IMG/VR virus record: IMGVR_UViG_3300037189_002362
Coordinates: 1-24,410 of that record
Source: a virus
Length of the DNA: 24,410 nucleotides
Direction: 5' to 3' (one strand)
Shown here one piece after another: positions 5,673 to 24,322 of the stretch. The translations under genes were made by a program, and so were the position numbers. Each line of letters begins with the position of its first letter. The first letter of the stretch is position 1. Under the pieces are notes generated by a model, which did no database searches, was not told the origin of the DNA, and saw only the letters and a program-made list of their open reading frames with translations.

Positions 5673-6116
5673 ATGGCAACATATAATTCTGTTTCTGGAA
5701 AAAGTGTAATACCTCAAAATGGTATTTCTGATCCTACTCCTACCGGCCGCGCATATCGCGGTCTAAGCACTGTTGCCTCTCCAACAGGTAGTTTTACACT
5801 ATACGATTTAAGTTTAATTAAACAAGATATTGTAAATCATCTGCACATTCGTCAGGGTGAAAAACTAGAAAATCCTGAATTTGGCTGTATTATTTGGGAC
5901 TTGCTATTCGATCCTTTAACAGAAGAACTAAAAGATGCTATTGCAGATAATGTTACTCAAATAATGAACTATGATCCTAGAGTTAAAGTTGATAGTTTAG
6001 TAGTCAGCGAATATGAAAGCGGCATACAAGTTGAGTGCGATTTAGTATATCTGCCCTATAACATATCAGAACAGTTGCGTTTTAGATTTGACAACGACAA
6101 CAACATCCTCAGTTAA
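5673..6116 (+). CDS. 25: Baseplate wedge protein gp25 (sheath-assembly initiator)
   Basis: gp25 is a conserved wedge component of contractile injection systems; in T4 it binds gp6 and gp53 and offers the handshake strand that starts sheath assembly. At 147 residues it is near the T4 length (132). The family core is present: DIVNHLHIRQGEKLENPEFG (about 51-70), where the Gly-Glu plus Asn-Pro-x-Phe-Gly pattern is characteristic, followed by WDLLFDPLTEEL and NYDPRVKV (about 99-106). The N-terminal 40 residues are Ser/Thr/Pro-rich and extend beyond the T4 protein. No strong ribosome site lies close to the ATG; the nearest AGGA (5653-5656) is 16 nt away inside gene 5. Translation may depend on coupling to gene 5 or, if the element at 5658 works, on an almost leaderless message. 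Confidence 0.92.
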   Translation: MATYNSVSGKSVIPQNGISDPTPTGRAYRGLSTVASPTGSFTLYDLSLIKQDIVNHLHIRQGEKLENPEFGCIIWDLLFDPLTEELKDAIADNVTQIMNYDPRVKVDSLVVSEYESGIQVECDLVYLPYNISEQLRFRFDNDNNILS

Positions 6117-6165: not shown

Positions 6166-9100
6166 ATGGCAAGTGTAGATAGACAAAATAAACTTATTGC
6201 GGCAGAAGATTGGAAAAAGATATACCAATCTTTTAAAAATGCAGACTTCAAATCGTACGACTTTGACAATCTACGTCGTACAATGATCACGTATCTACGT
6301 GAAAATTATCCAGAAGATTTTAACGATTATATTGAGTCAAGCGAGTACCTGGCACTAATTGATCTCATCTCATTTTTAGGTCAAAACCTAGCATTTAGAT
6401 TTGACTTAAATGCCCGTGATAACTTTCTTGAACTAGCAGAACGCAGAGAAAGTGTTCTACGTCTAGCACGTCTATTATCTTATAATCCTAAACGTTGTCT
6501 GCCAGCCAACGGCCTATTAAAATTTACATCTGTATCTACAACAGAAACTGTAATCGACAGCAACGGAAGAAATTTATCCAATCAGACTATCGTATGGAAT
6601 GACAGTGCTAATGTAAACTGGTATGAACAATTCATTAAAGTCATTAATTCAGCACTGCCAGAAACAAGTCAGTACGGCAAACCGATAGACAGCTCAATTA
6701 TCAGCGGAGTTCCTTGTGAACAATATCGCTTCAACGCTTCAAACACAGAAGTGCCAATTTACGGATTTAGTAAAAATATTGACGGCAGAAATATTGACTT
6801 TGAAGTTGTGTCTACAACCTTTTCAGGCAAAGAAGCAATCTACGAAGAATCGCCGTTCCCAACAAATAGTCTAGCATTTTTATATAGAGACGATGGCGGC
6901 GGCCCGCCTAGCAGTAATACAGGATTTTTTGTACACTTCCGTCAAGGAACATTACAAGAAAGTACATTTACAATTGAGCGTCCTAGCACTAGCGAAACAC
7001 TAGACATTGACAGTCCTAATATTAATAACTCGGATGTATGGTTATACGGATTGGACAGTATTGGTTTTGAAACAAATCTATGGACTAAAGTAGATGCGGT
7101 AGAAGGTAATAATATTATCTATAACAGCGTTAGTAAAAATATTAGAAACATCTATAGTGTATTAACACGTTCGTTGGATCGTGTTAGATTAATTTTTGCT
7201 GACGGCACTTTTGGTAATTTACCACAAGGAAACTTTAAAGTTTATTATAGAACCAGCAATGGTTTATCTTATTCTATTAACCCAACAGATATAAGAAATG
7301 TAACTATAGATATTCCTTATATTAGCCGCGCTGGCAAAAAAGAAGTTATTACAATAGCACTGGGATTAAAATATACAGTAACTAATTCTGCCATTGCTGA
7401 GACATCTGACAGCATTAAAACAAATGCACCTGCCACATACTACACACAAAGTCGTATGATTACCGGCGAGGATTACAACGTTTATCCTCTAAGCATTAAT
7501 CAAGAAATTATTAAAGTAAAATCTATTAACAGAGTTAGTAGCGGAATCAGTAGATATTTTGATTTAAAAGATAGCACTGGAAAATACAGTACAACAAATC
7601 TGTTTGGAACAGACGGGATAATTTACAAAGAACCCACAGTGGATAGATTTACGTTTACTGTAAACACACGCTCAGATATTGAAAATGTTGTATTAAATCA
7701 AATAGAACCAATATTGTCAAATAGAAAAACAATTGATTTTTATATTGACAAATATACTAAAATTGCATTAGGTCCAAACTTCAGCAGTTTTTATCAGCAA
7801 ACAAGTGCAGTTAATCTATCAACAGGTTACATTGGAGATACAGAAACTGCGTCTACAAAAAAATTAGGATCTTATACTAGTTCTAATCTGCGATATGTAG
7901 TACCGGGCGCATTAGGAAAATTTATTCCGCCTTCAGGAAAGATTTTTAATGCAGACAATGAAATAATCGATATTGCAAATGCAGATGTAAATTCTAAATC
8001 TTATATCTGGAGTAAATTCATTAATGTTATTTCTGACGGCACTGCATCGAACACAGGATTGCTATCAGACGGCACTGGCCCTGTTATTCTTAATGATGTT
8101 ATTCCTAGCGGAGCATACATGGATTTAGTATTACCAAAATTTGTTACCGGCCTGGAAGCCAGCGTTATTGCTCGAATAATTGATTTAATCTTTGCTAACA
8201 AAGAATTTGGTTTAAGATATGATGCTAATCTTACAACCTGGAAAATTGTTTCAGATACAAACGTTGATAAAAAGAATGATTTTAGTCTAGGCAAAGCCGG
8301 AGACGTAAGTAATCAACAGTTAGATGCCAGTTGGGTTGTTTTATTTGAAACCAACGGAGAAACTTATACTGTTACTAGTCGTGGAACACGATACGTATTC
8401 GAAAGCGAAAAAGAAATAAGATTCTTTTACGATAGCAGTGATAAAGTTTATGATACCAGCACAGGAAAAATTGTAAGAGACAGTATTACTGTTTTAGGAA
8501 TTAATAAAAATCCCGATAGTATTACTCCAATCAATCAAGATATCAAGTGGGAAATTATTGACGAATACAAAGGTGCTGACGGATATATCGACAGTAAAAA
8601 AATTGCAATTAGTTTCTACGACAACGATGAAGACGGTGTAGTTGATAATCCTGAAATATTTGATATTATTGTTGCTCCTACTGTAAATTCTTCAGAAAAG
8701 TATATTTTTCAAAAGAGTAGAATTAGCATAGATGGTATAACAGATTATTATTATATTAAGAATGAAAATAACTTAATTAAAATTTTTACATCGCAGGGAG
8801 TAATCGACAGTAATACTTTGACAAATCAACAGTTAGTTTATGTCATTGACGAAGATGTGATAAAAGTTTTTTATAAAGAGAGTGCTAGTTTTGTTATTAC
8901 TACAGAATATCGTGCATTTGTTGGAAGAGATATATTGAAGTTTCAGTATGTACATGCCGCAGATGAAAGTGCTAGGATTGATCCGGCATCTACAAATATT
9001 ATTGATGTTTATATGTTAACAAGATCTTACGATACACAATACCGATTATGGTTAAATGGCGATCTAACATCTAAACCTTTACCTCCAAGTAGCGATTCTC

Positions 9101-9597
9101 TTTTTATTAATTTTGGCGGAGAACTAGGAAAAATAAAAGCCATAAGCGATGAAGTAATTTATCATCCGGTAAAATATAAAAACTTGTTTGGCTCCAAAGC
9201 AGATACAAGTCTTCAGGTAACCTTTAAAGTTGTTAAAAACAGTTCTTTAATTGTCAGCGACAACGATATTAAGACAGGTGTAGTTACAGCAATTAAAGAA
9301 TTTTTTGCTATAGAAAACTGGGACTTTGGAGATACATTTTACTTCGGAGAGTTAGCAACATATATTATGACTAAAATGAGTCCTAAGATTGCTAACATTG
9401 TGTTAGTTCCAAAAAATCAAAATTTAGCGTTTGGTAGTTTATACGAAATTAAATCAAACCCTGACGAAATATTTGCCAGTTCAGTATCAGTTGATAACAT
9501 TGAAATTATTTCAGAAATAACTGCGGCAAGATTAAACACAACAGGTATAATTTTAACATCAAGCGCGGCGTCAGCCAACGGCATTGCAAGTAATTAA
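6166..9597 (+). CDS. 6: Baseplate wedge protein gp6 (baseplate J family), enlarged
   Basis: gp6 forms the ring that holds the baseplate wedges together and changes conformation on contraction. The N-terminal region is diagnostic: NLRRTMITYLRENYPEDFND, LALIDLISFLGQNLAFRFDL and LAERRESVLRLARLLSYNPK (about 35-109). The middle carries YYTQSRMITGEDYNVYPLSI (about 422-445), a conserved gp6/J-family segment. The C-terminal part (about 1027-1120) has TGVVTAIKEFFAIENWDFGD and the usual ELATYI...VLVP close. At 1143 residues it is much longer than T4 gp6 (660). The extra mass lies in the second half, with a calcium-loop-like motif at 819-830. GAGGG 6 nt upstream sets the start. It is followed after 10 nt by the giant gene, mirroring the T4 order 25-6-7. 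Confidence 0.9.
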   Translation: MASVDRQNKLIAAEDWKKIYQSFKNADFKSYDFDNLRRTMITYLRENYPEDFNDYIESSEYLALIDLISFLGQNLAFRFDLNARDNFLELAERRESVLRLARLLSYNPKRCLPANGLLKFTSVSTTETVIDSNGRNLSNQTIVWNDSANVNWYEQFIKVINSALPETSQYGKPIDSSIISGVPCEQYRFNASNTEVPIYGFSKNIDGRNIDFEVVSTTFSGKEAIYEESPFPTNSLAFLYRDDGGGPPSSNTGFFVHFRQGTLQESTFTIERPSTSETLDIDSPNINNSDVWLYGLDSIGFETNLWTKVDAVEGNNIIYNSVSKNIRNIYSVLTRSLDRVRLIFADGTFGNLPQGNFKVYYRTSNGLSYSINPTDIRNVTIDIPYISRAGKKEVITIALGLKYTVTNSAIAETSDSIKTNAPATYYTQSRMITGEDYNVYPLSINQEIIKVKSINRVSSGISRYFDLKDSTGKYSTTNLFGTDGIIYKEPTVDRFTFTVNTRSDIENVVLNQIEPILSNRKTIDFYIDKYTKIALGPNFSSFYQQTSAVNLSTGYIGDTETASTKKLGSYTSSNLRYVVPGALGKFIPPSGKIFNADNEIIDIANADVNSKSYIWSKFINVISDGTASNTGLLSDGTGPVILNDVIPSGAYMDLVLPKFVTGLEASVIARIIDLIFANKEFGLRYDANLTTWKIVSDTNVDKKNDFSLGKAGDVSNQQLDASWVVLFETNGETYTVTSRGTRYVFESEKEIRFFYDSSDKVYDTSTGKIVRDSITVLGINKNPDSITPINQDIKWEIIDEYKGADGYIDSKKIAISFYDNDEDGVVDNPEIFDIIVAPTVNSSEKYIFQKSRISIDGITDYYYIKNENNLIKIFTSQGVIDSNTLTNQQLVYVIDEDVIKVFYKESASFVITTEYRAFVGRDILKFQYVHAADESARIDPASTNIIDVYMLTRSYDTQYRLWLNGDLTSKPLPPSSDSLFINFGGELGKIKAISDEVIYHPVKYKNLFGSKADTSLQVTFKVVKNSSLIVSDNDIKTGVVTAIKEFFAIENWDFGDTFYFGELATYIMTKMSPKIANIVLVPKNQNLAFGSLYEIKSNPDEIFASSVSVDNIEIISEITAARLNTTGIILTSSAASANGIASN
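8620..8655 (+). other. EF-hand/dockerin-like calcium loop in gp6
   Basis: Residues 819-830 of gp6 read DNDEDGVVDNPE. Asp at positions 1, 3, 5 and 9, Gly at 6 and Glu at 12 match the canonical Ca2+-binding loop (DxDxDGxxDxxE). No second hand is apparent, so a single structural calcium site of dockerin or thrombospondin type is more likely than a calmodulin-type pair. Metal binding is inferred from the pattern only. Confidence 0.5.
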
Positions 9598-9607
9598 AGG
9601 ACAGTAA

Positions 9608-12600
9608 ATGGCATTTACTAAAGATCAAAAAGAACCAAGTCTGCCAACTAGCAGTACAGACACTTCACGAAGTGCTGTTAATTTTTTACCTAGATATTTT
9701 AGAACAAGCACTAATCAAAAGTTTTTAAATGGAACTTTAGATCAGTTAATTTCTGTTGGCACAGTTGATAAAATTAATGCTTATATTGGTAGAAAAACCA
9801 GTAAAGCATACACACCAGCCGACAACTACGTTGAAGAAATATCATCAAATAGATCTGCATACCAGTTAGAGCCAGCAGTTATTGTTCGCGACAATTTAGA
9901 TAATATAACTTTTTTCAGCGATTACAATGATTATATCAATCAGTTATTTTATTTTAATGCGGCTGTTGCAGACCATAGTAAAATAAACAGTCAGGAATTC
10001 TACAGTTGGGATCCTCACATTGAGTGGGATAAATTTGTTAACTATAGAGAATACTATTGGCTTCCAAAAGGTCCGCAGGTCATTGCTGTCAAAGGACAGT
10101 CTAAATCAATAATTAGTACCTATACTGTTACTTTTGTTAACGACGGTGATAATTTTGCCTATGTCTTTAGCCCAGACGGCCTAACAAGAAATCCTACTCT
10201 AAAATTATATAGAGGTCAAACATACAAGTTTGAGATTAATTGCCCTGGGCACGGTATCGCATTTAAAACTATTAGAGATCTTGCAGATTCTTTTATATAT
10301 GAGCAAGGTATAACCAGCGACACCAAGTATGTAGAAGTAGGTACTATTACTTTTAAAATACCAGAAATTTCTCCAGACATTCTCTACTATGTTAGTGCGG
10401 ACGATATCAATATGTCCGGATTCTTTAAGATTTATGACATCGAGGAAAATACTTTTATCGATGTTGAAAAAGAAATTCTAGGAAAAAAGACATACAATAT
10501 TGACGGAACCACAGAACTGTCAAACGGCATGAAGTTGAATTTCATTGGAAATGTTACGCCTAACAAATATGCAACAGACAACTGGTATGTAGAAGGTGTA
10601 GGCGAAAGAATAAGATTGATTGCAGAAGCATCTTTGCAAACTCCTTCTACGTTTACATTAGATCAGGACGTTGAATTTGATTCAGAAAATTTTGACACAC
10701 AGGGGTTTGATGTAAACAATAATTATCCTAGTAAAAAAGACTACATCACTATTAATAGAAGTAGTCGAGATGGAAATCACTGGACTAGATACAATAGATG
10801 GTTCCATAAATCTGTTATTGAAGCATCAGCAGCCTATAATAATCAACCAGTGGTAATTGATCAAACAGCCAGGGCAAAGCGTCCGATTGTTGAATTTAAA
10901 GCAGATATACAACTATGGAATTTTGGTCGTCAGGCCAAGCGTAGTGTTGACTTAATCGATTTGTATACTAAAGATGCATTTTCAACAGTTGAAGGCAGTA
11001 TTGGATATAACATTGACGGGGTGCTGTTATTAGAAGGTATGCGAGTGTTATTTGCAGTAGACACAGATGATACTGTTAACGGCAGAATTTTTAAAATTGG
11101 GTTTGTAACACATCTTGGAATTAAAAGAATAACTTTATTAGAAGACGATGATACAACTCCTATTGACGGCGAATCTGTATTAATCACAGACGGTGATAAT
11201 TTCAAAGGCAAGATGTTCCATTATGCTAGCGGAGCATGGGTAGAAAGCCAAGATAAAATTGAAGTTAATACTCCTCCATTATTTGATGTAGTAGATGTTA
11301 ATGCAGTAAGTTACGGTGATAGAACAACCTATGTGGGTTCAACATTTGCAGGTACTAAATTATTCAGTTATCAAATTGGTGATACCTATGATAATGAATT
11401 AGGTTTTAATATATCTTATAAAAATATTGGAAATATTGGCGACATAGTTTTTGATTTTAATTTACAGAAAGATTCGTTTACGTTCCAAGGCGAAGTTGAA
11501 CTAATAGAAAGATATCTAGATAGAGGATATGTTAGATTTAACAGCGACCTATCAAATTTTAATTTATTAAATGGTTGGATTAAATCTGAATTTTTAACTA
11601 GACAGCCGGTAGTGCGTCAGTATGTTGCTACAGCACAGTTATTAAATTTATTCCCAATTGATGTTTATAAAAAAAGTGCAACACTTGAAGATTTAGATGT
11701 TAAAATTTTTGTTAATAATAAAAAAATAACTGACTTTGAAATTTATAGACAAAACGGCATTGCCTATATTCAGTTTATTTCTAATGTCAAAGTTAATGAC
11801 ATTGTGCTTATTGAAACAATGTCTTCTGCTGAAAAAATAGATGACATTGGATATTATAAATTTCCAAGCAATTTAGAAAGTAATCCTCAAAATTTAAGTC
11901 TATATGATTTAACACTAGGGCAAATTTCTAATCATGTAAAAACAATTACAGATAATTATTCTAATTTCCAAGGATCTATTCCAGGAATTAGTAATTTAAG
12001 AGATTTAGGAAATGTATCCGGATACGGTACACAAATTGTACAGCATTCTGGCCCTCTTGCTCCGATCATTTATTCATTTACAAATAAAAATGTAAACATT
12101 ATAAAAAGTTTACGTTATGCAAAAAATGAATATTCTAAATTCAAACGTAATTTAATTAGAACAGCCACTAATTACGGCTACGACGGAATAACAAGAACAC
12201 ATTTAGATTTAATATTAACAGAGGCTACAAAAAATAATACAATCGAATCTCCATTTTATCTAAGTGATATGGTTCCGTTTGGCGTAAATTTTGTCTACGA
12301 GCAAGAAGTTATCGATGATTCGTTTACAGATTATCCTCTAACATTTGACTTTAATCTAGACGAGGCCAGCGCCAAGGCTGTAATGATTTATGTCAACGAC
12401 GAAATAATATTACACCGTAGAGATTATATTTTTATTAATACTAGTTTTGTAAGAATTTTATCCCCAATTCAAGCCGGCGATAATTTAAAAATTGTTCAAT
12501 ATGAACAAACAGCCGGTTGCTGTGTTCCTCCAACTCCTAGCAAATTGGGGTTATATCCTTTATTCGAACCAAAAATTTATATTGACGATACCTATCAAAC

Positions 12601-15600
12601 ACCTACAAAGGTAATACAAGGACACGACGGTAGTATCACAGTGGCGTTTTCTAAAGTAGGCGAGCCCAACGAGTTTAGAGACGAATTGTTATTAGAATTT
12701 GAAACACGAGTTTACAACAATATTAAGGTAAGATATAATCCTGAATTATTAAACATTGATAGTTTAGTTTCAGGATTCTTTAGAAAAACCGATGTGTCAA
12801 TTGAACAATTAAATTCTACGTTAAGACAGGAATTTTTAAATTGGTCAACATTAATTAATGATGATTATACCAAACACACATTCTTTGATAGGAATAATCC
12901 GTTTACATTTAATTATAAATCGTTTGCAGATCCTGCGGGTGTACCGCATTTAGGATTCTGGAGAGGTATTTACAAATACTTCTACGATACAGATCGCCCA
13001 CATACACATCCATGGGAGATGTTAGGTTTTAGCATTCAGCCTGATTGGTGGGAAAATACATACGGACCTGCTCCATATTCTAAAGACAACTTACTACTAT
13101 GGCAAGATTTGTCAGAAGGATTAATTAGAATTCCAGGACAATTGCCTGAAAAGAACAAACTGTATGCAAGGCCAGATCTATTAAAATTTTTACCAGTAGA
13201 TGATCAGGGACAATTAATTGACCCACTTACAGTAGGTATGGTTGCTGATTTTGTATCTGTGTTTACAGAACGCGAATTTACATTTGGCGATCAAGCACCG
13301 ATTGAAACAGCATGGCGCCGCAACAGTCAATTCCCATTTGCATTAATTACTGCCTTAACTTTACTGCAACCGGCAAAAATGTTTGCTTTAGGATTTGATA
13401 GAATACGTCAGTACAGAGATGATACAGGACAAATTGTTTATAAGTTACCTGAAGGTAATTTGCGTTTCAGTACTAAGAACGTAATTTTTCCAAGCACAGT
13501 AAAAGACTCGACACGGGTGTTTACTAGTGGGTTGGTTAATTATCTTTCAGATTATGCTTTAAGCAAATCATTTACAATTTTAGATAATTTTAAAACAAAT
13601 TTTAGTTCATTACAAGTAAAAATTTCTAGCAAACTTGCTGGATTTACAACTAAAGAAAAATTTAAATTAATTTTAGATAGTCGTAGTCCACTGAATGAAG
13701 GTAATGTTTTTATTCCTCAAGAAAATTATGATATTATTCTAAATTCAAGTACACCCGTAACAACAATTGATTACAGCGGAGTTATTGTTGAAAAAACTAC
13801 TTCAGGATTTGTAATCAAAGGCTACGATAAATTAGTTCCAGAATTTAAATATAAAAAAGCAGTATCAACTGTTTCTGATCCTCAGATTAGTGTTGGTGGA
13901 ATTTCTGAAACTTATATAGATTGGAATTCTGGAAAATACTACAGTAAAGGTCAGATTGTTAAAAGAGATGATAATTATTTTAGAGTGACAACAGCTCACG
14001 ACAGTACTACAACTTTTGAACTTAAATATTTTGCTAAATTACCTTCGCTGCCAATTGTTGGCGGCAGAGAAATTACTTTAAGAAGAAATTTTGAAACTGA
14101 TATTGACACTCTTCATTACGGCGCAGAATTAAAAACTGTTCAAGAAGTAGTTGATTTTCTATTAGGCTATGGCAAGTATCTAACTGATTCAGGATTTACA
14201 TTTGATTATTTTAATCCTGCCCTAAGAACAAACACAGACTGGCAAACTAGTGCTAAAGAATTTACATTCTGGACTACACAAAACTGGGCAGATGGCGCAG
14301 TAATCACATTAAGCCCAGCCGCAGAAGAATTAGTTTATAGACAAGACTATGCAGTAGTCGACAGCATTTACGATCCGTTTTACGAATATTCTATTTTTAA
14401 ACAAGACGGTATCGAATTAGAACCAAGTTTTACAAACAGTGTTCGAGAGAAAAATAGTTTTAGTCTGCGTCCAACAAATACAGCAGACGGTCTATATCAC
14501 GCAACACTAAATCTTGTACAAAAGGAACACGTTTTAATTCTTGACGACGCTACAGTTTTCAATGATATCATATACGATCAAACTCAGGGTTATCGTCAAG
14601 ATAGAATTAAAATAGTAGGATATAAAATCAGCGACTGGACCGGAGATTTTAGTATTCCTGGTTTTGTCTACGACCGTGCAACAGTTACAGAATGGAAATC
14701 TTGGAAAGATTATTCACTGGGCGAAACAGTCAAGTACAAAGAATTTTATTATAGTGCTAAACAAAATGTTCCAGGAACAGAAACATTTGATTACGACAGT
14801 TGGTACAAATTATCAGATAAACCAGAAAGTAAATTAATTCCTAACTGGGATTATCGTGCTACACAGTTTGAAGATTTTTATGATTTAGACACTGATAGTT
14901 TTGATGTTGACCAACAAAAGTTTGCACAACACTTAATTGGTTATCAAAAACGCCAGTACTTAGAAAACATTATCAATGACGATGTAAGTCAGTATAAGTT
15001 CTATCAAGGCATGATACAAGAGAAAGGCACACAGAATAGTCTTTCTAAATTGTTTGACGCACTAAATTATGCAGAGCAAGACAGTCTTGAGTTCTTTGAA
15101 GAGTGGGCAATTCGTTTAGGTCAGTACGGAGCCAACGCAGGTTTTGAAGAAGTAGAATACATTCTCAACGAAGAAAAATTCTTAATTAACCCTCAACCGA
15201 TCGAATTGGTAAATGTTGTTCCATTTGGTGTAAACGATTTCGTCTATCGTATTACTCAGGATCAGGTGTATTTAAAACCTGATGATTATACACATGCACC
15301 GTTCCCTGTAGTAGCATCGCAAAAAGAATATATTCGTACTGCTGGATATGTAAACTATGAAGATGTTGATTACATAATTAATTCAAAAGATGAATTTGCA
15401 GATTATGATATTAACACTTTAGTTGAAGGAAAATATTTCTGGCTTGGATTTGATAAGAGTTCTTGGAACGTATACAGATTTACAAATTTTGCAAAATCGA
15501 TAAAACTTGTCGAAGAAACTTCAAATCTGCGATTTGTTCTAAAAACAAAACTGCCAGTAGATATTGAAATCGGAAGTTATGTTGGAATTAACAACACCAG

Positions 15601-18600
15601 CACTTCTCTTGAAGGTATCAAAGAAGTAATCGATACAGGATTGAACTGGTTCGAAATAACCATGCCTGCAGATTTAGATACTGCGGCTATAATTGAAATT
15701 AACAAATCGTTAAACATTAATCTGTTTAAATTTACACCACAGCGATTATCAAGTATTGATGATTTAAACTCTCTGCCTATATCTGCTAAGAAAAATAATG
15801 AACTAGTATGGACAGATGGTGTTAATAATAATTGGAGTGTTTGGAAGTTTTCTAAGAACTATACCAGAACAAAAATTACCAGCGAAGAAGATAATTTTGG
15901 AAAAGCACTGGCAATTAGCGGAAATGAAATAGTCTTTGCGGTTTCTGCATCTAACATTGTTCTTTATTATTCAAGACCGACTGTAAATTTTGGCTGGGCC
16001 TATCAAGAAACGTTGTCTCCGTTGTCGACTGAAACATTTACAGATACAAATGGTAGTTTCGGCGATAGTATTTGTTTTAGTGCAGACGGCACTTACCTAT
16101 TTGTAGGCGCCCCAAAGTACGGTGTGGTATCTATCCCGGATCCAGATCCTTTAGATCCTCCTATAATCACAGAAGTTGATATTGGATATGTAGCACAATT
16201 TACTAGAAACATTTACGGTAGTTATGAATTTACTCGAGTTATACAAAACTCTACTCCAACACAATTTCAATATTTTGGAGACAAACTTCAAGTCAACGGA
16301 AATATTTTATACATAGTATCTAAAGGTGGATTATCAATTGACGGTAGCACATTAGTGCCTGCGGCATTGACAGCATATAATCTTACTTCTAATACAATTA
16401 TAACTTCGTTGGACCTAACACCAGGAATATCAATAACCGATATTGATGTTTCAACAAATAATACTGTTGTTATTTCTAAAGACGATGAATCAGTATTAGT
16501 AGTTAAGTTAGTGAGTTCAACATTTGTTACAGTAAAAGAATTAAACGTCAGCGATTTTGTTTCGTTAGAACAGATTAGTACAGGCAGCAATTTTGCTACA
16601 TCTGTTGCAATTTCTAATGATTCGTCTTATATTGCAGTTGGCGCACCAGGATATTCTAACGTTGCATCAAACCAAGGTGCAGTAGCATTGTTTAAATTAA
16701 ACAATACAGTTTACGAACCGCTTGATTTAATAACCAGCCCATTAAACCAAGACAGTGAAAAATTTGGTTATAGAGTTAAATTTAATGCTGACGGAGATAG
16801 ATTAGTAATCTATAGTTATGGTGGAAATCAAACAATTGAAACTACCATTGACGGCGAAAACACTACATTTGATTTAAACGTTACTAAATTTATAGAACTA
16901 GAAGAGTTTACTGGTAGTGTGCGTGTTTACGAAAAATACGATACAAAATTCTTAATTGGTGATGAATTAGAACCACAAAATGTTTTAGGAATTAATTATG
17001 GTGATGCATTTGTTGTAGCAAAAAATGTCTACGTTAATGATCAAACATCAACAGACGGAGCATTCTACGAGTTTGCTAGTACGGCAAAATCATGGACAAA
17101 ATATCGCCAACCAGAATCGTCTGTTAATTTGTCTAAGATTAAATCGTTATTTTTATACAATACTAGAACAAACAATATAATTGCAAATCTTGATTTTATT
17201 GATCCTATCAATGGAAAAATATTAGGCATTGCAGAACAAGAGTTAAGTTTTAAAACATACTATGATCCAGCAACGTATTCTGTAGGTACAGATGCAGTTG
17301 TAACTAATTCTTTAATGGCATGGAAAAATAACAATGTTGGAAAACTTTGGTGGGATTTAAGCACAGTTAAATTTGCAGATCCGCTACAAGGATCAATTGT
17401 TTACAAAGCCAACACATGGAACAATGTTTATAACAATGCCAGCGTTGATATCTACGAATGGGTTGAAAGCGAATATCTTCCAAGTGAGTGGGATAGCCTA
17501 GCAGATACAGAAACTGGATTGGTGTTGGGTATTAGTGGAACTTCTAGATACGGAGATGCAGTATACAGTGTTCGTCAAAGTTATGACAACGTAAGTAAAA
17601 CATTTAAAAATATCTATTACTTCTGGGTGAAGAATAAAACTGTAGTACCGAATGTTACATTTAGAAAAACATCAGCAAGTGACGTAGCCAAGTTAATAGC
17701 AAATCCAAAAGGACAAGGCGCCCAATACGCTACACTATTAGGATCAAATCAGTTTGCACTAGTAAACTGTAAAGATTTAATAACTGCAAAAGACGTTGCG
17801 TTGAACATTCGTTATTGGATTATTGATAACACAGAACAAAACATTCATGCACATTATCAGTTATTGGCCGAAGGCAATATTAATAAAAAACTTAACAAGT
17901 ATGTTGAACAAAAATGGTTTGACAGTCTTGTCGGTTACGATATAACAGGCGCAGAAGTTCCTGATCCTAAACTGCCAGCAAAATTAAAATACGGAATTTT
18001 AAACAAACCTAGACAAGGCATGTTTGTTAACCGATTGGAAGCATTAAAACAATTTACAGAACGTGTAAACTCAGTTTTAATTTCTAGATCTATAATAGAT
18101 GATTTAGACTTGTCTAAATTAAATTCTAAAGAAGATGCTCCTACAGAAATTTCTGGCAAGTATGATATTGCTATAGATACACAAAGTCAAATTCGTTTTG
18201 TTGGCTCTACAGGATTTAAACAAGCCACACTGGCACCTGTAGTAGAAGCAGGAAAAATTGTTAGAGTAATTGTTATTGCATCTGGAAGAGGCTATAAAAT
18301 CTCTCCAGAAATCACAATCACAGGAGCAGGCTCAGGTGCTAAATTAACTGCACGATTAAATTCTTCAGGAGAAATTACCGGAGTAACTGTAAATAATTCT
18401 GGTAGAGATTACCTAGATACAACAATACTGACAGTACGACCATTTACAATTCTAGTTAACAGCGATGAAACGGCCGCCAATAAGTGGAGTTTATATATAT
18501 GGGACACTACACTAGGAACCTGGTTTAGATCTAAAACACAAACATACGATGTAACAAAACACTGGAATTATATTGATTGGTATGCCGACGGTTATTCAGA

Positions 18601-21600
18601 ATATACTAAGATAAATCATTTAGTCGATTTTTCTTACGAGATGAGTTTCATTGACATTGCGGTCGGTGATTTAGTAAAAATTAAAAACGAAAAATCTGGC
18701 GGCTGGATTCTATTAGAAAGAATTAATAACTTAATCACAGATAATGTTTCTTTAAATTATAGAACAGTAGGAAGAGAAAACGGTACTATCCAGTTTAATT
18801 CAAATCTTTATAAATTTGTTAACAGCAATATTGGTTTTGACAGTTTTACCTATGACGGCGACGCATACGATGATGAACCAAAAGAAGAATTAAGAATTAT
18901 TTTAGATGTTATTAAAAATAATATATTAGTAGATGATTTAGAAATAGAATATAATAAATTATTCTTTGCAAGTCTTCGTTATGTATTCACAGAACAGCCG
19001 TTTGTTGATTGGGCTTTCAAGACATCTTTTGTCAAGAGTCAGCACAACTTAGGCGAATTACAGCAAAAAATTAACTACAAAAATGATAGTTTATCTAGTT
19101 ACGAAGATTATATCAATGAAGTTAAACCATATCGCACTAAAGTCAGAGAATTTATCAGCAATTATACAGCCACTGATAATACAAATACTGGTACAACAGA
19201 TTTTGACCTACCTGCCGCATATAACCAAGAAGAAGGAAAAATTCTTCCTTACAATGTAAAAGTTAGAGGATCTTCAATAGTTTATACAGATAGAACTATT
19301 TTAAATGCTCCTTATAGTGACTGGTTAGATAATATTGGTTATAGTGTTACAGAAATAATAGTATCCAATGGCGGATCTGATTATCAAGTAGCACCTTCTA
19401 TTGAAATAGTCGGCAGTGCAAGAACAACAGCCACAGCCAAGGCCTACATATCACAAGGATCTGTAACTAAGATTATTGTAGAAACATCAGGCGCTGGCTA
19501 TATAACAACACCTGTAATTTCCATTACAGGATCTTCTACTACACCTGCAACTGCTACAGCGGTGCTAGGCAATGGTTTAACTAGAACAAACACTATAGGA
19601 ATTAAGTTTGACAGAACAATACCTAATTATGAAATCAGTTCTATAACTGTAACACAGACATTTAACGGTACTGGCTCTAGAACTTTGTTTGAATTAAATT
19701 GGCCAATTGATTTAAGAACAAATAAAACATCTGTGGTAGTGTCTAACGAGGAATTGTTATCTAGCGATTTTGAAGTTTACAACAGAAAAGACACATCTAA
19801 GGGTTATACAAGATACATTGGTATTCTTGAATTAACCACAGCCGCAGAAATTGGATCAGCAAACGTAACTATATCTTATACCAAAGATATTAGATTGCTA
19901 TCAGCCGCAGATAGAATTCAGTATTATTATAATCCAACAACTGGACAGTTAGGTAAAGATCTTGGACAGTTAATGAAAGGCATTGACTACGGCGGTGTTG
20001 AAGTAACTGGACTTGGATTTGAGATAGGTTCAGGCTGGGACGGCCTTCCATGGTTTACTGCGGGCTGGGACGATTTCGATGAAGCATACACAGATCATCT
20101 AGTTGTATCTGACGGAACTACTCGTTCATTTAATCTTCCTTATATCCCAGAAGATGGCGAACAGATTACTGTATACATAAACGGTATAAGAATAGATGAT
20201 GTTAATTATGATGTCTACACATCTGCTAAAACTGCCTACGATATCACTGTTGCTGAGTTAGAGACATTAACAGCAGAAGAGGTAGTTTTACAAAATCAAA
20301 CAGATGCTAAACAAGCAGAGTTAGACGGCTTTACGCAGGATCTAATTGATACACAGGCAGTTATTGTAGATTTAGAAGCACAGTTAGCAGTAACTTCGCC
20401 AAGCGATCCATTGTATTTTACTCTGCAAACACTTTTAGCAGAAAATCAAGCGCAGGAAGCACAGTTAATTAGTGACATATCTGTAGCCAACGGAGAATTG
20501 GTTGTATTGCAGACAAGTCTGTCTGCAAAAGAAACTGAGGTTTCAAATAAAACAATAGAAGTTGCTAACAATTTGTCAACATTAAATTCTACGCCAGTGA
20601 TTACAAATCCTGATGCTCAAATGAATACATTTACAGGCGATGGCAGCACCAATGAACCAATAATTATTCCAGCATACGTAGATGTTAATGATGGTGATAT
20701 AATTATTTTCCGTAAAAGCACTAGCGACGGAAGTTTTAGACCAAATCAACAATTCCTTGATTCCGAAATCACAGGCGGAGATTTTACATATACCACTGCT
20801 AGAGGAATCCGTGCAGAAGAAATTATTATTGATGGTGACAATTTTGTAACGCCAACAACCAGTTATGCTCCTGAAGAAGTAGTTACTGGACAGGTAATTG
20901 ACTCTGTTGCAATTACAGTTTATCACACAGTTGAAGATGGTGCACCTGTTATTACTACAAGACACTATATTACAACAGAGCCAGAAAATGAATTTTTAAT
21001 TGGTCAAAGACCAAATAGCACACAAGCGGCATTTGTCAAAGTCAACGGATTGATAAAGAAACAAGATGTTGATTATACATTAAATTTTGGACTAGCAAAG
21101 ATTGTATTTCCAACTAATTTGCCAGTAGGCAGCGAAGTTGTTGTTACATCGATGAGCCGAAATGGTCTTAATGTTTTAGATTCTGACTCCTTTATCGGTG
21201 ACGGTGTATCGATAGAATTTGTCACAGTTGCTAGATGGGACGGAGACTATTCTGTTTTAGTTACAATTAACGGAGTTCCAACTACAGTTACAACTTTTGT
21301 TACAGATAATACCTACAGTGAAGTGGGTAACATTGGTATCAGATTTGCCACAGCGCCTGCTAACACAGCAATTATTGATTATACTGTAATAAGTTCAACA
21401 TTAAACAGCATTAGTCGCGTGTCTTCGGAGACTGTTGTTTATGACGGTACAACTCAAGTGTATGCGTTGACTAATACACCAGCCAACTTAGAACCGTTTG
21501 ACAATAATGTAATTGTTGAACACGCTGGAAAAATACTACGCCCAGTTGACACTGTTTATTTTGATGTATCAGGAACTTCTAGAACATATCTTGTAAGCAC

Positions 21601-23683
21601 AGTGGATTATGCTATTAATACAATTGATACTAACAAAATTCGAGTTTATAAAAACGGACAAGAATTATTAATTTCTAAAGAATTTACATGGAAGTCTTCT
21701 AATAATCAACTGACAATCAAGCGCGGTGTAGCAGTTGCAGGCGATAAGATTGCCTTAGTGATTTTAGCCAATGCTGAATATTACATCGAAAAAGATTCTA
21801 CTAATACACAAATTAGATTATTAGACACTTATTCTGCTAATGCAAAATTTGTTGTAACAACGTTTACTAATCATGATATTTTAGACATCGAACGTAATAA
21901 TGATTTTATTACTTCTTCGAGTACAGTTACGATCGGATCTACAGAATATTATAGATTAAATCAGTTATTAGCAGGACGTATACAATTAAGAAGCCCATCA
22001 ATTGGCGCACAATATATATGGCTAACATTGAATGGTGAATTATTAACTCCTGAAATTGATTATATTTTAGAAGATAATTTAACCTATATTCAAATTGATA
22101 GAAATAAAGTCCTATCAGATACTGATATTATTGAAGTGATTGTGTTTAGTAGTAGTGTATCATTTAATCGTCCATTTGGTTACAGAATCTTTAAGGATTT
22201 ATTGAATAGAACTTTCTATAAGAGACTAGATGCAGATGCAACTACCTATTTGGCACAACCATTGAACTATTATGATACTAAAATTGAATTAGTTGATGCT
22301 TCTAATTTAGTTGAACCTTTGCGAAATCAAAATCAACCTGGTATTATTATCATTGATAAAGAGCGTATCGAGTATCTTGAAAAATCTGGAAACACACTTA
22401 GGTATCTAAGAAGAGGTACATTAGGTACAGGTATTCCGCAGACACACGCTTTAGGAACAATGGTAATTGACGCCAGCGTAGGACAGACTATTCCTTACAA
22501 AGATGAAACAGAAACAGTTGTTTTAGTTGCTGGCGGCTATAGTCAGGGTTCGGAAGTTTTTGAAAATAGTCTTGGAATGTCAGTAACTTCTGTCAAGTAT
22601 AATTTTAATAATAATACTGCATTCCCGTTAGGAACACAAGTTGCAACAGTAACTGGTAGCGGATTCAAAGAAAATGTACAGGTAATAGTCGGCGATCCAA
22701 CATTAACTGTTAATTTTACAGCCGCTGAAATTAATTCAGCAGGAGAAATTATTGTAAGTTCAATTGATAGAATATATGAAGGAAAAGAAATAGTATTCAC
22801 CGGCGCAGTTTTTGGTGGCATTGAAACAACAACTTCTTATTATGTTTTAACTTATGGTCAGGATCCTACTACAGACGAGTATTATATTACAGTCAGTGAA
22901 AGCATCAGCGGTTCTCCTGTAATATTATCAGTAAGCACAGGGGAAATGATTGGCACACACAGCCGTTCAGTATGTAAGACAACTTATATTAACAGTACAA
23001 AATTAACTTTCATTACACAACCAGAAGTTGTTGGAGCATACGATTTAATTGTATTAAATCCTTCGTTCTCGGTGGGCCCAGTCACAGTGGCACAAACCAG
23101 TTATGTGGCTCCAGAAGCAATTAGATATGTTCAAATATTATTACCTTTTGCTCCGCTACCAAACCCAAAAACAGCAGTAGGTTGGTATAAAGATACTACA
23201 GAAATTAGTGTAACTGACATACAGCCTGGTAGAGGATACAAAATTAATACTGTTGGAACTACCGATTATATGAGTATTGGTGCAACTGCAAATACAGTAG
23301 GTACAGAATTTATTGCAACCGCAGTGGGTTCGGGTACAGGTACAGTATTAGATTACACAAGTATTCCGTTAGAGTACTGGGAAGGCATGGACATTGAGGT
23401 GTTTGTAGCAGGTACTAGACTGCGTAAAACTCCAATCACTATTTGGGACGAAAGTTTAGGCCCAGATAGTCCTAGCGGTGACAAGCAATTACAAGCAGAA
23501 TTTGCAGTAAACAAAAATGTAGGTGCTTATGTACGTTTAACAGAACCTCCAATGAAAGGTTCTAAAGTTATAGTACAGAAGAAAGTAGGAAAAGTTTGGG
23601 TAGCACAGGGCGAAAGTCTAGTGAATTCGCAAACAGACCAAGCAAAATTCGTTCGTGCTAAGGCAGCGAATTTGCCTCGATAA
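9608..23683 (+). CDS. Giant mosaic baseplate/virion structural protein in the gene 7 position
   Basis: One unbroken frame of 4691 codons (roughly half a megadalton), against 1032 residues for T4 gp7. AAGGA 6 nt before the ATG supports the start. It occupies the gp7 site after gp6, so a peripheral wedge role is likely but unproven. Visible parts: an N-terminal block I recall from large wedge proteins of marine T4-like phages (VNFLPRYFRTSTNQKFLNG, VDKINAYIGRK; 24-85); WDPHIEWDKFVNYREYYWLP (134-153); a cupredoxin-like module (168-278); RSSRDGNHWTRYNRWFHKS (about 384-402); a block with PHTHPWEMLGF (about 1131); a helical block (1778-1843, GYQKRQYLENIINDD); FG-GAP-like repeats (2092-2407); two Gly-x-Gly-Tyr beta modules (2884-2945, 3247-3323); a coiled coil (3539-3660); GDG-type beta repeats (3671-3902); a TIG-like module (4335-4497); and a C-terminal beta module. 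There are about six cysteines in all, no signal peptide and no membrane segment. The promoter is probably that of gene 6. Confidence 0.75.
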   Translation: MAFTKDQKEPSLPTSSTDTSRSAVNFLPRYFRTSTNQKFLNGTLDQLISVGTVDKINAYIGRKTSKAYTPADNYVEEISSNRSAYQLEPAVIVRDNLDNITFFSDYNDYINQLFYFNAAVADHSKINSQEFYSWDPHIEWDKFVNYREYYWLPKGPQVIAVKGQSKSIISTYTVTFVNDGDNFAYVFSPDGLTRNPTLKLYRGQTYKFEINCPGHGIAFKTIRDLADSFIYEQGITSDTKYVEVGTITFKIPEISPDILYYVSADDINMSGFFKIYDIEENTFIDVEKEILGKKTYNIDGTTELSNGMKLNFIGNVTPNKYATDNWYVEGVGERIRLIAEASLQTPSTFTLDQDVEFDSENFDTQGFDVNNNYPSKKDYITINRSSRDGNHWTRYNRWFHKSVIEASAAYNNQPVVIDQTARAKRPIVEFKADIQLWNFGRQAKRSVDLIDLYTKDAFSTVEGSIGYNIDGVLLLEGMRVLFAVDTDDTVNGRIFKIGFVTHLGIKRITLLEDDDTTPIDGESVLITDGDNFKGKMFHYASGAWVESQDKIEVNTPPLFDVVDVNAVSYGDRTTYVGSTFAGTKLFSYQIGDTYDNELGFNISYKNIGNIGDIVFDFNLQKDSFTFQGEVELIERYLDRGYVRFNSDLSNFNLLNGWIKSEFLTRQPVVRQYVATAQLLNLFPIDVYKKSATLEDLDVKIFVNNKKITDFEIYRQNGIAYIQFISNVKVNDIVLIETMSSAEKIDDIGYYKFPSNLESNPQNLSLYDLTLGQISNHVKTITDNYSNFQGSIPGISNLRDLGNVSGYGTQIVQHSGPLAPIIYSFTNKNVNIIKSLRYAKNEYSKFKRNLIRTATNYGYDGITRTHLDLILTEATKNNTIESPFYLSDMVPFGVNFVYEQEVIDDSFTDYPLTFDFNLDEASAKAVMIYVNDEIILHRRDYIFINTSFVRILSPIQAGDNLKIVQYEQTAGCCVPPTPSKLGLYPLFEPKIYIDDTYQTPTKVIQGHDGSITVAFSKVGEPNEFRDELLLEFETRVYNNIKVRYNPELLNIDSLVSGFFRKTDVSIEQLNSTLRQEFLNWSTLINDDYTKHTFFDRNNPFTFNYKSFADPAGVPHLGFWRGIYKYFYDTDRPHTHPWEMLGFSIQPDWWENTYGPAPYSKDNLLLWQDLSEGLIRIPGQLPEKNKLYARPDLLKFLPVDDQGQLIDPLTVGMVADFVSVFTEREFTFGDQAPIETAWRRNSQFPFALITALTLLQPAKMFALGFDRIRQYRDDTGQIVYKLPEGNLRFSTKNVIFPSTVKDSTRVFTSGLVNYLSDYALSKSFTILDNFKTNFSSLQVKISSKLAGFTTKEKFKLILDSRSPLNEGNVFIPQENYDIILNSSTPVTTIDYSGVIVEKTTSGFVIKGYDKLVPEFKYKKAVSTVSDPQISVGGISETYIDWNSGKYYSKGQIVKRDDNYFRVTTAHDSTTTFELKYFAKLPSLPIVGGREITLRRNFETDIDTLHYGAELKTVQEVVDFLLGYGKYLTDSGFTFDYFNPALRTNTDWQTSAKEFTFWTTQNWADGAVITLSPAAEELVYRQDYAVVDSIYDPFYEYSIFKQDGIELEPSFTNSVREKNSFSLRPTNTADGLYHATLNLVQKEHVLILDDATVFNDIIYDQTQGYRQDRIKIVGYKISDWTGDFSIPGFVYDRATVTEWKSWKDYSLGETVKYKEFYYSAKQNVPGTETFDYDSWYKLSDKPESKLIPNWDYRATQFEDFYDLDTDSFDVDQQKFAQHLIGYQKRQYLENIINDDVSQYKFYQGMIQEKGTQNSLSKLFDALNYAEQDSLEFFEEWAIRLGQYGANAGFEEVEYILNEEKFLINPQPIELVNVVPFGVNDFVYRITQDQVYLKPDDYTHAPFPVVASQKEYIRTAGYVNYEDVDYIINSKDEFADYDINTLVEGKYFWLGFDKSSWNVYRFTNFAKSIKLVEETSNLRFVLKTKLPVDIEIGSYVGINNTSTSLEGIKEVIDTGLNWFEITMPADLDTAAIIEINKSLNINLFKFTPQRLSSIDDLNSLPISAKKNNELVWTDGVNNNWSVWKFSKNYTRTKITSEEDNFGKALAISGNEIVFAVSASNIVLYYSRPTVNFGWAYQETLSPLSTETFTDTNGSFGDSICFSADGTYLFVGAPKYGVVSIPDPDPLDPPIITEVDIGYVAQFTRNIYGSYEFTRVIQNSTPTQFQYFGDKLQVNGNILYIVSKGGLSIDGSTLVPAALTAYNLTSNTIITSLDLTPGISITDIDVSTNNTVVISKDDESVLVVKLVSSTFVTVKELNVSDFVSLEQISTGSNFATSVAISNDSSYIAVGAPGYSNVASNQGAVALFKLNNTVYEPLDLITSPLNQDSEKFGYRVKFNADGDRLVIYSYGGNQTIETTIDGENTTFDLNVTKFIELEEFTGSVRVYEKYDTKFLIGDELEPQNVLGINYGDAFVVAKNVYVNDQTSTDGAFYEFASTAKSWTKYRQPESSVNLSKIKSLFLYNTRTNNIIANLDFIDPINGKILGIAEQELSFKTYYDPATYSVGTDAVVTNSLMAWKNNNVGKLWWDLSTVKFADPLQGSIVYKANTWNNVYNNASVDIYEWVESEYLPSEWDSLADTETGLVLGISGTSRYGDAVYSVRQSYDNVSKTFKNIYYFWVKNKTVVPNVTFRKTSASDVAKLIANPKGQGAQYATLLGSNQFALVNCKDLITAKDVALNIRYWIIDNTEQNIHAHYQLLAEGNINKKLNKYVEQKWFDSLVGYDITGAEVPDPKLPAKLKYGILNKPRQGMFVNRLEALKQFTERVNSVLISRSIIDDLDLSKLNSKEDAPTEISGKYDIAIDTQSQIRFVGSTGFKQATLAPVVEAGKIVRVIVIASGRGYKISPEITITGAGSGAKLTARLNSSGEITGVTVNNSGRDYLDTTILTVRPFTILVNSDETAANKWSLYIWDTTLGTWFRSKTQTYDVTKHWNYIDWYADGYSEYTKINHLVDFSYEMSFIDIAVGDLVKIKNEKSGGWILLERINNLITDNVSLNYRTVGRENGTIQFNSNLYKFVNSNIGFDSFTYDGDAYDDEPKEELRIILDVIKNNILVDDLEIEYNKLFFASLRYVFTEQPFVDWAFKTSFVKSQHNLGELQQKINYKNDSLSSYEDYINEVKPYRTKVREFISNYTATDNTNTGTTDFDLPAAYNQEEGKILPYNVKVRGSSIVYTDRTILNAPYSDWLDNIGYSVTEIIVSNGGSDYQVAPSIEIVGSARTTATAKAYISQGSVTKIIVETSGAGYITTPVISITGSSTTPATATAVLGNGLTRTNTIGIKFDRTIPNYEISSITVTQTFNGTGSRTLFELNWPIDLRTNKTSVVVSNEELLSSDFEVYNRKDTSKGYTRYIGILELTTAAEIGSANVTISYTKDIRLLSAADRIQYYYNPTTGQLGKDLGQLMKGIDYGGVEVTGLGFEIGSGWDGLPWFTAGWDDFDEAYTDHLVVSDGTTRSFNLPYIPEDGEQITVYINGIRIDDVNYDVYTSAKTAYDITVAELETLTAEEVVLQNQTDAKQAELDGFTQDLIDTQAVIVDLEAQLAVTSPSDPLYFTLQTLLAENQAQEAQLISDISVANGELVVLQTSLSAKETEVSNKTIEVANNLSTLNSTPVITNPDAQMNTFTGDGSTNEPIIIPAYVDVNDGDIIIFRKSTSDGSFRPNQQFLDSEITGGDFTYTTARGIRAEEIIIDGDNFVTPTTSYAPEEVVTGQVIDSVAITVYHTVEDGAPVITTRHYITTEPENEFLIGQRPNSTQAAFVKVNGLIKKQDVDYTLNFGLAKIVFPTNLPVGSEVVVTSMSRNGLNVLDSDSFIGDGVSIEFVTVARWDGDYSVLVTINGVPTTVTTFVTDNTYSEVGNIGIRFATAPANTAIIDYTVISSTLNSISRVSSETVVYDGTTQVYALTNTPANLEPFDNNVIVEHAGKILRPVDTVYFDVSGTSRTYLVSTVDYAINTIDTNKIRVYKNGQELLISKEFTWKSSNNQLTIKRGVAVAGDKIALVILANAEYYIEKDSTNTQIRLLDTYSANAKFVVTTFTNHDILDIERNNDFITSSSTVTIGSTEYYRLNQLLAGRIQLRSPSIGAQYIWLTLNGELLTPEIDYILEDNLTYIQIDRNKVLSDTDIIEVIVFSSSVSFNRPFGYRIFKDLLNRTFYKRLDADATTYLAQPLNYYDTKIELVDASNLVEPLRNQNQPGIIIIDKERIEYLEKSGNTLRYLRRGTLGTGIPQTHALGTMVIDASVGQTIPYKDETETVVLVAGGYSQGSEVFENSLGMSVTSVKYNFNNNTAFPLGTQVATVTGSGFKENVQVIVGDPTLTVNFTAAEINSAGEIIVSSIDRIYEGKEIVFTGAVFGGIETTTSYYVLTYGQDPTTDEYYITVSESISGSPVILSVSTGEMIGTHSRSVCKTTYINSTKLTFITQPEVVGAYDLIVLNPSFSVGPVTVAQTSYVAPEAIRYVQILLPFAPLPNPKTAVGWYKDTTEISVTDIQPGRGYKINTVGTTDYMSIGATANTVGTEFIATAVGSGTGTVLDYTSIPLEYWEGMDIEVFVAGTRLRKTPITIWDESLGPDSPSGDKQLQAEFAVNKNVGAYVRLTEPPMKGSKVIVQKKVGKVWVAQGESLVNSQTDQAKFVRAKAANLPR
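10109..10441 (+). other. Cupredoxin-like module in the giant protein, copper ligands apparently lost
   Basis: Residues about 168-278. The order YTVTFVNDG..., NPTLKLYRGQTYKFEINCPG, HGIAFKT, GTITFKIPE, LYYVSADDINMSG follows a plastocyanin-like module I recall from phage and marine bacterial proteins, whose usual close is LYYxCxxHxxMSG. Here the Cys and His of that close are absent while Met-Ser-Gly remains, so copper binding is unlikely and a purely structural role is inferred. Confidence 0.5.
15881..16830 (+). repeat. FG-GAP-like beta-propeller repeats in the giant protein
   Basis: Residues about 2092-2407 carry repeated units of the form Phe-Gly-(Lys/Asp/Tyr)...Ile-Ser-x-(Asp/Gly)...Val-Gly-Ala-Pro: DNFGKALAISGNEIVFAVS, GSFGDSICFSADGTYLFVGAP, TSVAISNDSSYIAVGAPGYS and EKFGYRVKFNADGDRLVIYS. 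FG-GAP repeats form seven-bladed propellers in integrin alpha chains and many secreted proteins. I can count four clear units plus weaker ones between, so a full propeller is plausible but not shown. Confidence 0.6.
18257..18442 (+). repeat. First Gly-x-Gly-Tyr beta repeat module in the giant protein
   Basis: Residues 2884-2945: IVRVIVIASGRGYKISPEIT, then ITGAGSGAKLTARLNSSGEI, then TGVTVNNSGRDYLDTTILTV. This is a two-unit repeat of the phage fibre type (V.xI.V...G.GY...P.ITI.G..). A second, clearly related module begins at 19346. Confidence 0.65.
19346..19575 (+). repeat. Second Gly-x-Gly-Tyr beta repeat module in the giant protein
   Basis: Residues 3247-3323: VTEIIVSNGGSDYQVAPSIE and VTKIIVETSGAGYITTPVIS form two units of the same pattern as the module at 18257, each followed by an Ile-Thr/Val-Gly-Ser turn and an Ala/Thr-rich strand. 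About 300 residues of unrelated sequence separate the modules, so they appear to be dispersed copies and not a tandem array. Confidence 0.65.
20222..20587 (+). other. Coiled-coil insertion in the giant protein
   Basis: Residues about 3539-3660 switch abruptly from beta-type sequence to Ala/Glu/Gln/Leu-rich helix: VAELETLTAEEVVLQNQTDA, LIDTQAVIVDLEAQLAVTS, then LQTLLAENQAQEAQLISDI and LQTSLSAKETEVSNKTIEV. Hydrophobic residues recur at 3-4 spacing. SPSDPLYF near the middle would break the helix, suggesting an antiparallel hairpin of two arms. It lies between INGIRIDDVNYDVY and NTFTGDGSTN, both typical of phage beta modules. Confidence 0.7.
22610..23098 (+). other. TIG/IPT-like module with an internal insertion
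   Basis: Residues about 4335-4497. It opens GTQVATVTGSGFKENVQVIVG and closes TKLTFITQPEVVGAYDLIVL, the two ends of a TIG/IPT Ig-like fold (Val-x-Gly-x-Gly-Phe ... Phe-x-x-Pro...Gly-x-Tyr-Asp-Leu-x-Val). About 85 residues separate them, including TSYYVLTYGQDPTTDEYYIT, a pattern seen in other phage fibre repeats, so one module seems inserted in another. Assigned by eye. Confidence 0.4.
23228..23350 (+). repeat. C-terminal GTTDY...GTGTV beta module
   Basis: Residues 4541-4581: GRGYKINTVGTTDYMSIGA then NTVGTEFIATAVGSGTGTV. This is a short module I recall from many phage tail fibre and appendage proteins. It lies about 110 residues before the end of the giant protein and precedes a terminal block with EFAVNKNVGAYVRLTEPP. 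Confidence 0.6.
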
Positions 23684-23707: not shown

Positions 23708-24322
23708 ATGACAACAAAACCAAATGAAAATTCAGGAATCCGAGTAGTAGGACATATTAAAATATATGATCCAACTACTAAGGAAGTCTTTATTGATAAG
23801 AAAAACGCTATTCACTACGAAAATATGAGTATAGCATTAGCAGAAAGTCTCGCAAATGCAGGCCAAGGATTCATTTATGAAATGGTATTTGGCAACGGCG
23901 GCACATCAGTAGATCCAACAGGAGTTATTACATACCTAACTCCTAACAGTACAGGGTCCAACGCTAGTCTATACAATGAAACATATACCAAAGTAGTTGA
24001 TGATAGAAGCACTAATAACCTAGATCCAACAAGAAATAAGATAGAAACACGTCATGTTACTGGTACAAATTACACAGATATTTTAATCACTTGTTTATTA
24101 GACTACGGCGAGCCTAGCAATCAGGACGCATTTGACAATGCTACATACACCGACGGCGAATATGTGTTTGATGAATTAGGTCTAAGAAGTTATGATCCTA
24201 CCGGAACCGGTAGATTACTAACTCATGTTATTTTCCACCCAGTACAAAAGTCACTTAACAGATTAATTCAAATTGATTATACTGTTCGTGTACAGAGTTT
24301 AACTGGTTTCAATGAGGCTTAA
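23708..24322 (+). CDS. Putative virion protein of unknown function (204 residues)
   Basis: I do not recognise a named family. Its site after the giant wedge-position gene and its own late promoter suggest a structural or appendage role. The sequence is soluble, beta-rich in appearance, with no signal peptide or membrane segment. Notable segments: IRVVGHIKIYDPTTKEVFID (11-30), NAIHYENMSIALAESLAN (34-51), YEMVFGNGGTSVDPTGVITY (57-76), VFDELGLRSYDP and LLTHVIFHPVQKSLNRLIQI (about 168-187). It does not resemble T4 gp8, expected here by gene order, nor obviously gp9. I have an impression of similar proteins in metagenomic marine phages but cannot verify it. AGGTGA 7 nt upstream supports the start. 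Two bases separate it from the next gene. Confidence 0.6.
   Translation: MTTKPNENSGIRVVGHIKIYDPTTKEVFIDKKNAIHYENMSIALAESLANAGQGFIYEMVFGNGGTSVDPTGVITYLTPNSTGSNASLYNETYTKVVDDRSTNNLDPTRNKIETRHVTGTNYTDILITCLLDYGEPSNQDAFDNATYTDGEYVFDELGLRSYDPTGTGRLLTHVIFHPVQKSLNRLIQIDYTVRVQSLTGFNEA

Follow-up and report, generated by a model that had tools for sequence, protein, structure and literature searches.

A giant modular structural protein encoded behind gp6 in the baseplate operon of a jumbo myophage

Background

In bacteriophage T4 the gene of the baseplate wedge initiator gp7 (1032 aa), which interacts with gp6/gp53, comes after that of gp6. The proteins encoded in the same slot in cyanophages are about 3,000-3,550 aa long, with other domains inserted into their real gp7 core. 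SSSM7_101 of Synechococcus phage S-SSM7 (3007 aa; PHROG 2885/4406) is encoded after gp6 and contains inserted beta domains and GxGY repeats. In the S-SSM7 sequence (L098, positions 15861-28279) two adjacent genes for proteins of about 3,000 aa are both labelled gp7.

Another family of giants is catalogued as PHROG 10938, "virion structural protein". It includes ORF070 of RaK2 (3326 aa), gene 582 of 121Q, CBB_236 of CBB, gp245 of phAPEC6, gp355 of PA5oct (3857 aa), gp180 of Atu_ph07 (4449 aa) and a protein of Sinorhizobium phage Phosso (4555 aa). The annotation of PA5oct gp355 notes its detection by ESI-MS/MS. CBB_236 is among the proteins identified in CBB virions, where 21 peptides cover 7.72% of it (PMC5259590). 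The 381.88 kDa gp245 of phAPEC6, taken here as a family member by size and position and not by sequence, is represented by 17 peptides and listed beside the wedge protein gp244 (PMC7247149). No function is given in the virion-protein entries for CBB_236 and phAPEC6 gp245 (PMC5259590, PMC7247149).

Results

The window analysed here is a 24,410-nucleotide stretch of the virus record IMGVR_UViG_3300037189_002362. A first-pass annotation had described in it one frame of 4691 residues at positions 9608-23683, covering 58% of the window and standing in the place of the T4 wedge protein gp7 with its 1032 residues. The coordinates, both lengths and the placement are all correct. The giant ORF, on the + strand, has an ATG start and no internal stop codons. 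Its start is preceded at a distance of 8 bases by AAAGGA and lies 10 bases downstream of the end of the gp6-like gene. The computed mass of the protein is 526.5 kDa and its pI is 4.7.

According to PHROG and Pfam matches, the gene order in the window is sigma factor, structural protein, gp53, structural protein, gp5-like hub, gp25, gp6, giant. The gp55-like late sigma factor gene (3-719) is on the strand opposite to the baseplate genes. The latter encode, on the + strand, a gp53-like wedge protein (1694..1993; Pfam Phage_gp53, PHROG 7145), a gp5-like baseplate hub/spike protein (4334..5662; PHROG 13211, E 6e-46), a gp25-like wedge protein (5673..6116; Pfam GPW_gp25), a gp6-like wedge protein of 1143 aa (6166..9597; PHROG 10646 with E=0, PHROG 219) and the giant itself (9608..23683; PHROG 10938). 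The giant gene is followed on the same strand by a gene matching PHROG 11259 (23708..24322); the similarly placed gp357 of PA5oct was detected in virions. The same order of baseplate genes is confirmed by PA5oct, 121Q, RaK2, CBB and Munch. The gp6-like protein is enlarged too, compared with the 660 residues of T4 gp6, and the gp6-like protein of Vibrio phage 2.275.O is annotated with CBM5/12. No sites of the T4-type late promoter TATAAATA were found on either strand of the window (1-24410), with 4.5 expected by shuffling, despite the gp55-like sigma factor encoded there.

The giant matches PHROG 10938 along its length (E=0, 1124 bits), as do all ten family members scanned. Searches with tblastn found relatives in 57 phage records, of which those listed come from jumbo phages, whole or in fragments. 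At least 594 IMG/VR stretches encode a relative, as judged by a profile of residues 1000-1360. The relatives are about 3,330 aa long in RaK2-like phages, and most aquatic contigs measured contain open frames of 4,441-5,585 codons. With frames of up to about 5,585 codons in relatives, the window protein is mid-range and typical of its clade. Nor is its size exceptional among phage proteins in general, since families of 4179 positions (baseplate wedge) and 6136 positions (structural) already exist in PHROGs. It is not a unique giant, and belongs to an already catalogued, widespread and functionally unstudied family.

Of the nine named relatives examined first, eight have the giant gene immediately after gp6: PA5oct (gp355), Atu_ph07 (gp180), RaK2 (ORF070), 121Q (gene 582), Vibrio phage 2.275.O, Munch, Phosso and CBB. 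The exception is SCTP-2, which retains the giant and has its gp6-like match elsewhere. Diverged versions, also behind gp6, were found in Xanthomonas phage XacN1 and Stenotrophomonas phage RAS14. Contigs with the giant gene also occur inside bacterial MAGs assigned to Neomarinimicrobiota, Endomicrobia, Puniceicoccaceae and Gammaproteobacteria (L113-L118); these are probably jumbo-phage contigs binned with bacteria.

A frame of this length might be suspected of being an assembly fusion of several genes, as the first-pass annotation itself had cautioned. The improbable length is the main ground for such a suspicion, together with one relative (L061) in which the giant gene is present as two frames. 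However, a relative 80% identical to the giant and collinear with it across all 4691 residues occurs on other contigs (L018/L019/L030), and collinear relatives are seen in many contigs and in isolated phages. Comparison of the giant with the 80%-identical relative in segments of 400 codons yielded dN/dS of 0.06-0.12 in 10 of 12 segments; in the other two dS is saturated and dN is as low as elsewhere, showing purifying selection along the whole ORF. The collinearity and the low dN/dS show that the ORF is not a fusion, and the artefact explanation, which we consider to have next to no chance of being correct, was rejected. In L061 the overlapping frames (6971-13918 and 13915-21054) divide the gene near the FG-GAP region, which is either a natural fission or a sequencing frameshift.

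Alignment of the giant with its relatives sets variable modules apart from a framework that is conserved (residues 1-165, about 400-1370, 1500-1860, 2500-2760 and 3095-3205). All positions given below for modules are on the + strand. The N-terminal module (residues 1-165; 9608..10102) is kept in all relatives. It had been described as wedge-like, which is not supported: profile and sequence searches with residues 1-165 found no match outside the giant family, and no profile links any part of the protein to T4 gp7.

The proposed cupredoxin-like part was borne out. Residues 166-281 (10103..10450), modelled by AlphaFold with pLDDT in the 80s (mean 83 for residues 1-1200), are predicted to adopt a cupredoxin fold (VIA, predicted model; Z 10.8, rmsd 2.7 over 100 residues). 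However, the type-1 copper ligands (Cys, His, His, Met) are lost: Cys and His occur together in the copper loop in none of the 61 aligned rows, and in 51 of the 61 the loop lacks C, H and M altogether. Copper binding was therefore rejected, and the domain is a structural or binding sandwich and not an electron-transfer domain. Cupredoxins filled the list of the fold search with the N-terminal model; that no T4 wedge protein figures there carries no evidential weight. Among predicted viral structures, short cupredoxin-like matches were found in cyanophage proteins annotated as "baseplate wedge tail fiber connector" and in proximal tail-fibre proteins; the 107-133 aligned columns of these matches fit the cupredoxin-like module, although the range itself was not printed.

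Further downstream, VNG-type beta modules were identified by cross-detection of internal profiles at residues 661-744 (11588..11839) and 893-966 (12284..12505), the latter cross-detecting 3988-4032. Residues 893-966 resemble in fold residues 187-250 of TSP4 from CBA120 (VIA, a single list row; Z 9.3, rmsd 1.7 over 64 residues). The likeness is one of fold alone and of a small module of the TSP4 N-terminal region; a sequence profile of residues 893-966 finds no TSP4 match. VNG modules also occur at 3500-3544, 3785-3850, 3941-4055 and 4124-4180; their cross-detections, like that of 661-744, are weak (E 0.0002-0.05).

A strongly conserved module with the motifs HDGS, WRGIY and PWEMLGF..P.WW occupies residues 1000-1240 (12605..13327). 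Two CBM5/12-like repeats follow at residues 1430-1480 (13895..14047; internal repeat E 4e-7) and 1691-1740 (14678..14827; internal cross-detection). Pfam CBM_5_12 matches the place equivalent to the first repeat in one relative (L055) with 35.3 bits against a cut-off of 26.2, and the window copy is below the cut-off. These repeats and the chain of VNG modules were absent from the first-pass annotation. The second repeat adjoins the most conserved stretch of the protein, residues 1741-1869 (14828..15214), with the pattern FYqGmI..KGT....KLF. The FG-GAP-like region proposed earlier, residues 2080-2480 (15845..17047), is variable and reduced in RaK2-like relatives; its assignment stands for relatives, where it is above the Pfam cut-off, but in the window the match is weak.

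A conserved module comes next at residues 2500-2760 (17105..17887; DP..GK...A, VGkLWWD, DVYEW). GxGY beta repeats, foreseen in the first-pass annotation as Gly-x-Gly-Tyr parts, were recovered by internal profiles at residues 2860-2950 (18185..18457) and at 3235-3330 (19310..19597). The latter overlaps a match to PHROG 460 (gp14 neck) at 3214-3315 (E 3e-12). Between the two repeats is another conserved module at 3095-3205 (18890..19222; VDWaFKTSF, Y..EVKPY.TKiR). Only two GxGY repeats are present here, compared with 8-12 in Atu_ph07 and Phosso, a difference that accounts for some of the variation in size.

The coiled-coil part corresponds to a clade-specific, putative coiled-coil insert read from the sequence at residues ~3535-3660 (20210..20587), which 6 of the 81 proteins in the alignment share. 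It is followed by the chain of VNG-type modules at residues 3785-4180 (20960..22147; cross-detection at 3785-3850, 3988-4032, 4055-4090 and 4124-4180). The expected TIG-like part is a putative TIG domain interrupted by an insert at residues ~4337-4485 (22616..23062), mapped from L021, where residues 4334-4392 match Pfam TIG with E 4e-9 and 36.8 bits against a cut-off of 20.9; the insert-split copy of the window was not reported by the Pfam scan. The protein ends with a segment common to relatives in the consensus (residues ~4620-4691; 23465..23680). While homologous to the other PHROG 10938 giants, with collinear conserved modules and the same slot after gp6, it differs from them in having its own C-terminal third and the coiled-coil insert.

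The relation to gp7 was addressed by profile-profile comparison of T4-type gp7 with overlapping 500-residue segments, in which nothing scored above reversed controls. In the positive control, gp7 of cyanophage S-SSM7 matched the T4 gp7 core with an hhalign probability of 95.9%. With a combined profile of T4 and cyanophage gp7 cores, the best four of about 114 segments all overlap residues 1802-1826 and score above every reversed control. There FYqGmI..KGT (1798-1818) is in register with the FY..KGT helix of gp7, with an hhalign probability of at most 4.5%, which is sub-threshold. The second element of the gp7 core, the HP.GF region, gave no match above control, reversed controls scoring better. 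PDB searches by sequence, using the whole protein and four conserved modules, gave no meaningful match, and neither did a fold search with a weak model (pLDDT 64) of the RaK2 middle region spanning both candidate elements.

The T4 gp7 profile detected no gene in six complete genomes containing the giant, and the gp8 profile none in the same six; the gp7 profile found its targets in the T4, KVP40-type and S-SSM7 controls, and the gp8 controls were found as well. In Atu_ph07 the matches to PHROG 438 fall within the giant itself and are confined to the repeat part, and a PHROG 977 match in the same phage (E 0.008, 28 positions) is negligible. Given that gp7 and gp8 are undetectable in these genomes, the giant is best read as a replacement for gp7, although this is unproven. 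The giant would be called gp7 by position but not by sequence.

Discussion

The giants form a conserved family of virion proteins, with presence in virions known from relatives; this is at odds with absence from virions, a prospect raised in the first-pass annotation. We consider it rather probable that the window belongs to a jumbo myophage with kinship to the Atu_ph07/PA5oct/RaK2 group and that its giant is a structural protein of the virion, most likely a peripheral scaffold of the baseplate wedge. This reading follows from the gene position behind gp6 in eight of nine relatives, the PHROG 10938 matches, the detection of relatives in virions, the lack of detectable gp7 and gp8 in complete relatives, the fibre-type folds, and the precedent of giant gp7 in cyanophages. 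Counted against it are the lack of a significant sequence or fold link of any part to T4 gp7, the retention of the giant in SCTP-2 although gp6 is elsewhere, the mass-spectrometric coverage of relatives of just 7-8%, from which an uncleaved chain does not follow, and the PHROGs category of PHROG 10938, "head and packaging". The last is probably a miscategorisation, as every named member examined is in or beside the baseplate genes.

One possibility is true but divergent homology to T4 gp7, the core having grown by insertion of domains as it has in cyanophages. The core would then be the KGT helix module (1741-1869), possibly with the VDW..EVKPY module (3095-3205). The position after gp6 agrees with this, as do the top segments of the core scan, in register at FY..KGT and above reversed controls, and the same interrupted-core plan of cyanophage gp7. 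T4 gp7 is 4.5 times shorter and has no significant similarity to the giant, sharing with it the gene position and possibly the FY..KGT helix motif. Cyanophage gp7 differs in having a demonstrable core and, beyond the shared GxGY repeats, is not homologous to the giant. Against the homology, absolute significance is absent (hhalign 4.5%), the second core element is without support, and there is no match of the giant to profiles or PDB, nor any gp7 profile match in the six complete genomes. Homology to gp7 is tenable, but we think it somewhat improbable.

Another explanation is that the giant is a scaffold for fibres or adsorption that merely neighbours the wedge genes and is attached to the tail, at the baseplate or at another site, with an unrelated small protein in the role of gp7. 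Most of the recognisable modules are indeed of fibre type, neck-type PHROG 460 repeats are present, and RaK2-like virions are described as carrying complex fibres and whiskers (PMC5259590, PMC7247149). On the other hand, the strongest conservation is in modules not recognised as fibre domains, and the gene keeps its place behind gp6 across distant jumbo phages. We consider the explanation unlikely.

If the giant is a peripheral wedge scaffold, its conserved modules (1-165, 400-1370, 1500-1860, 2500-2760, 3095-3205) may pack round the inner wedge of gp6, gp25 and gp53, so that the giant would stand in for gp7 and perhaps for gp8 too. The coiled coil and those beta modules that are inserted or C-terminal (cupredoxin-like, CBM5/12-like, FG-GAP, GxGY, VNG, TIG) would reach outward, where fibres could dock onto them or they could bind surfaces with low affinity. 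We infer the baseplate location, the copy number of six, the replacement of gp7 and gp8, and the docking. The merger of wedge and fibre functions suggested in the first-pass annotation is consistent with the gp7-slot position, the fibre-type mosaic and the detection of relatives in virions by mass spectrometry, but its wedge-like N-terminus is not supported. Joining of wedge and fibre-type parts is reasonable in view of the cupredoxin-like matches to cyanophage connector and fibre proteins and the TSP4-like fold. The suggested addition of about 3 MDa to a baseplate is arithmetically right, as six copies, the inferred number, would make 3.16 MDa. It is conceivable, though doubtful, that a single chain has taken over from gp7 as well as gp8 and supplies fibre-docking sites too, the periphery being built from six copies of 350-600 kDa and not from several proteins.

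The giant family occurs widely among aquatic and jumbo phages, where its genes are among the largest, and it is present in virions. The gene position, the loss of detectable gp7 and gp8, and the modular anatomy together provide a concrete hypothesis of how large contractile phages may build and decorate their enlarged baseplates.
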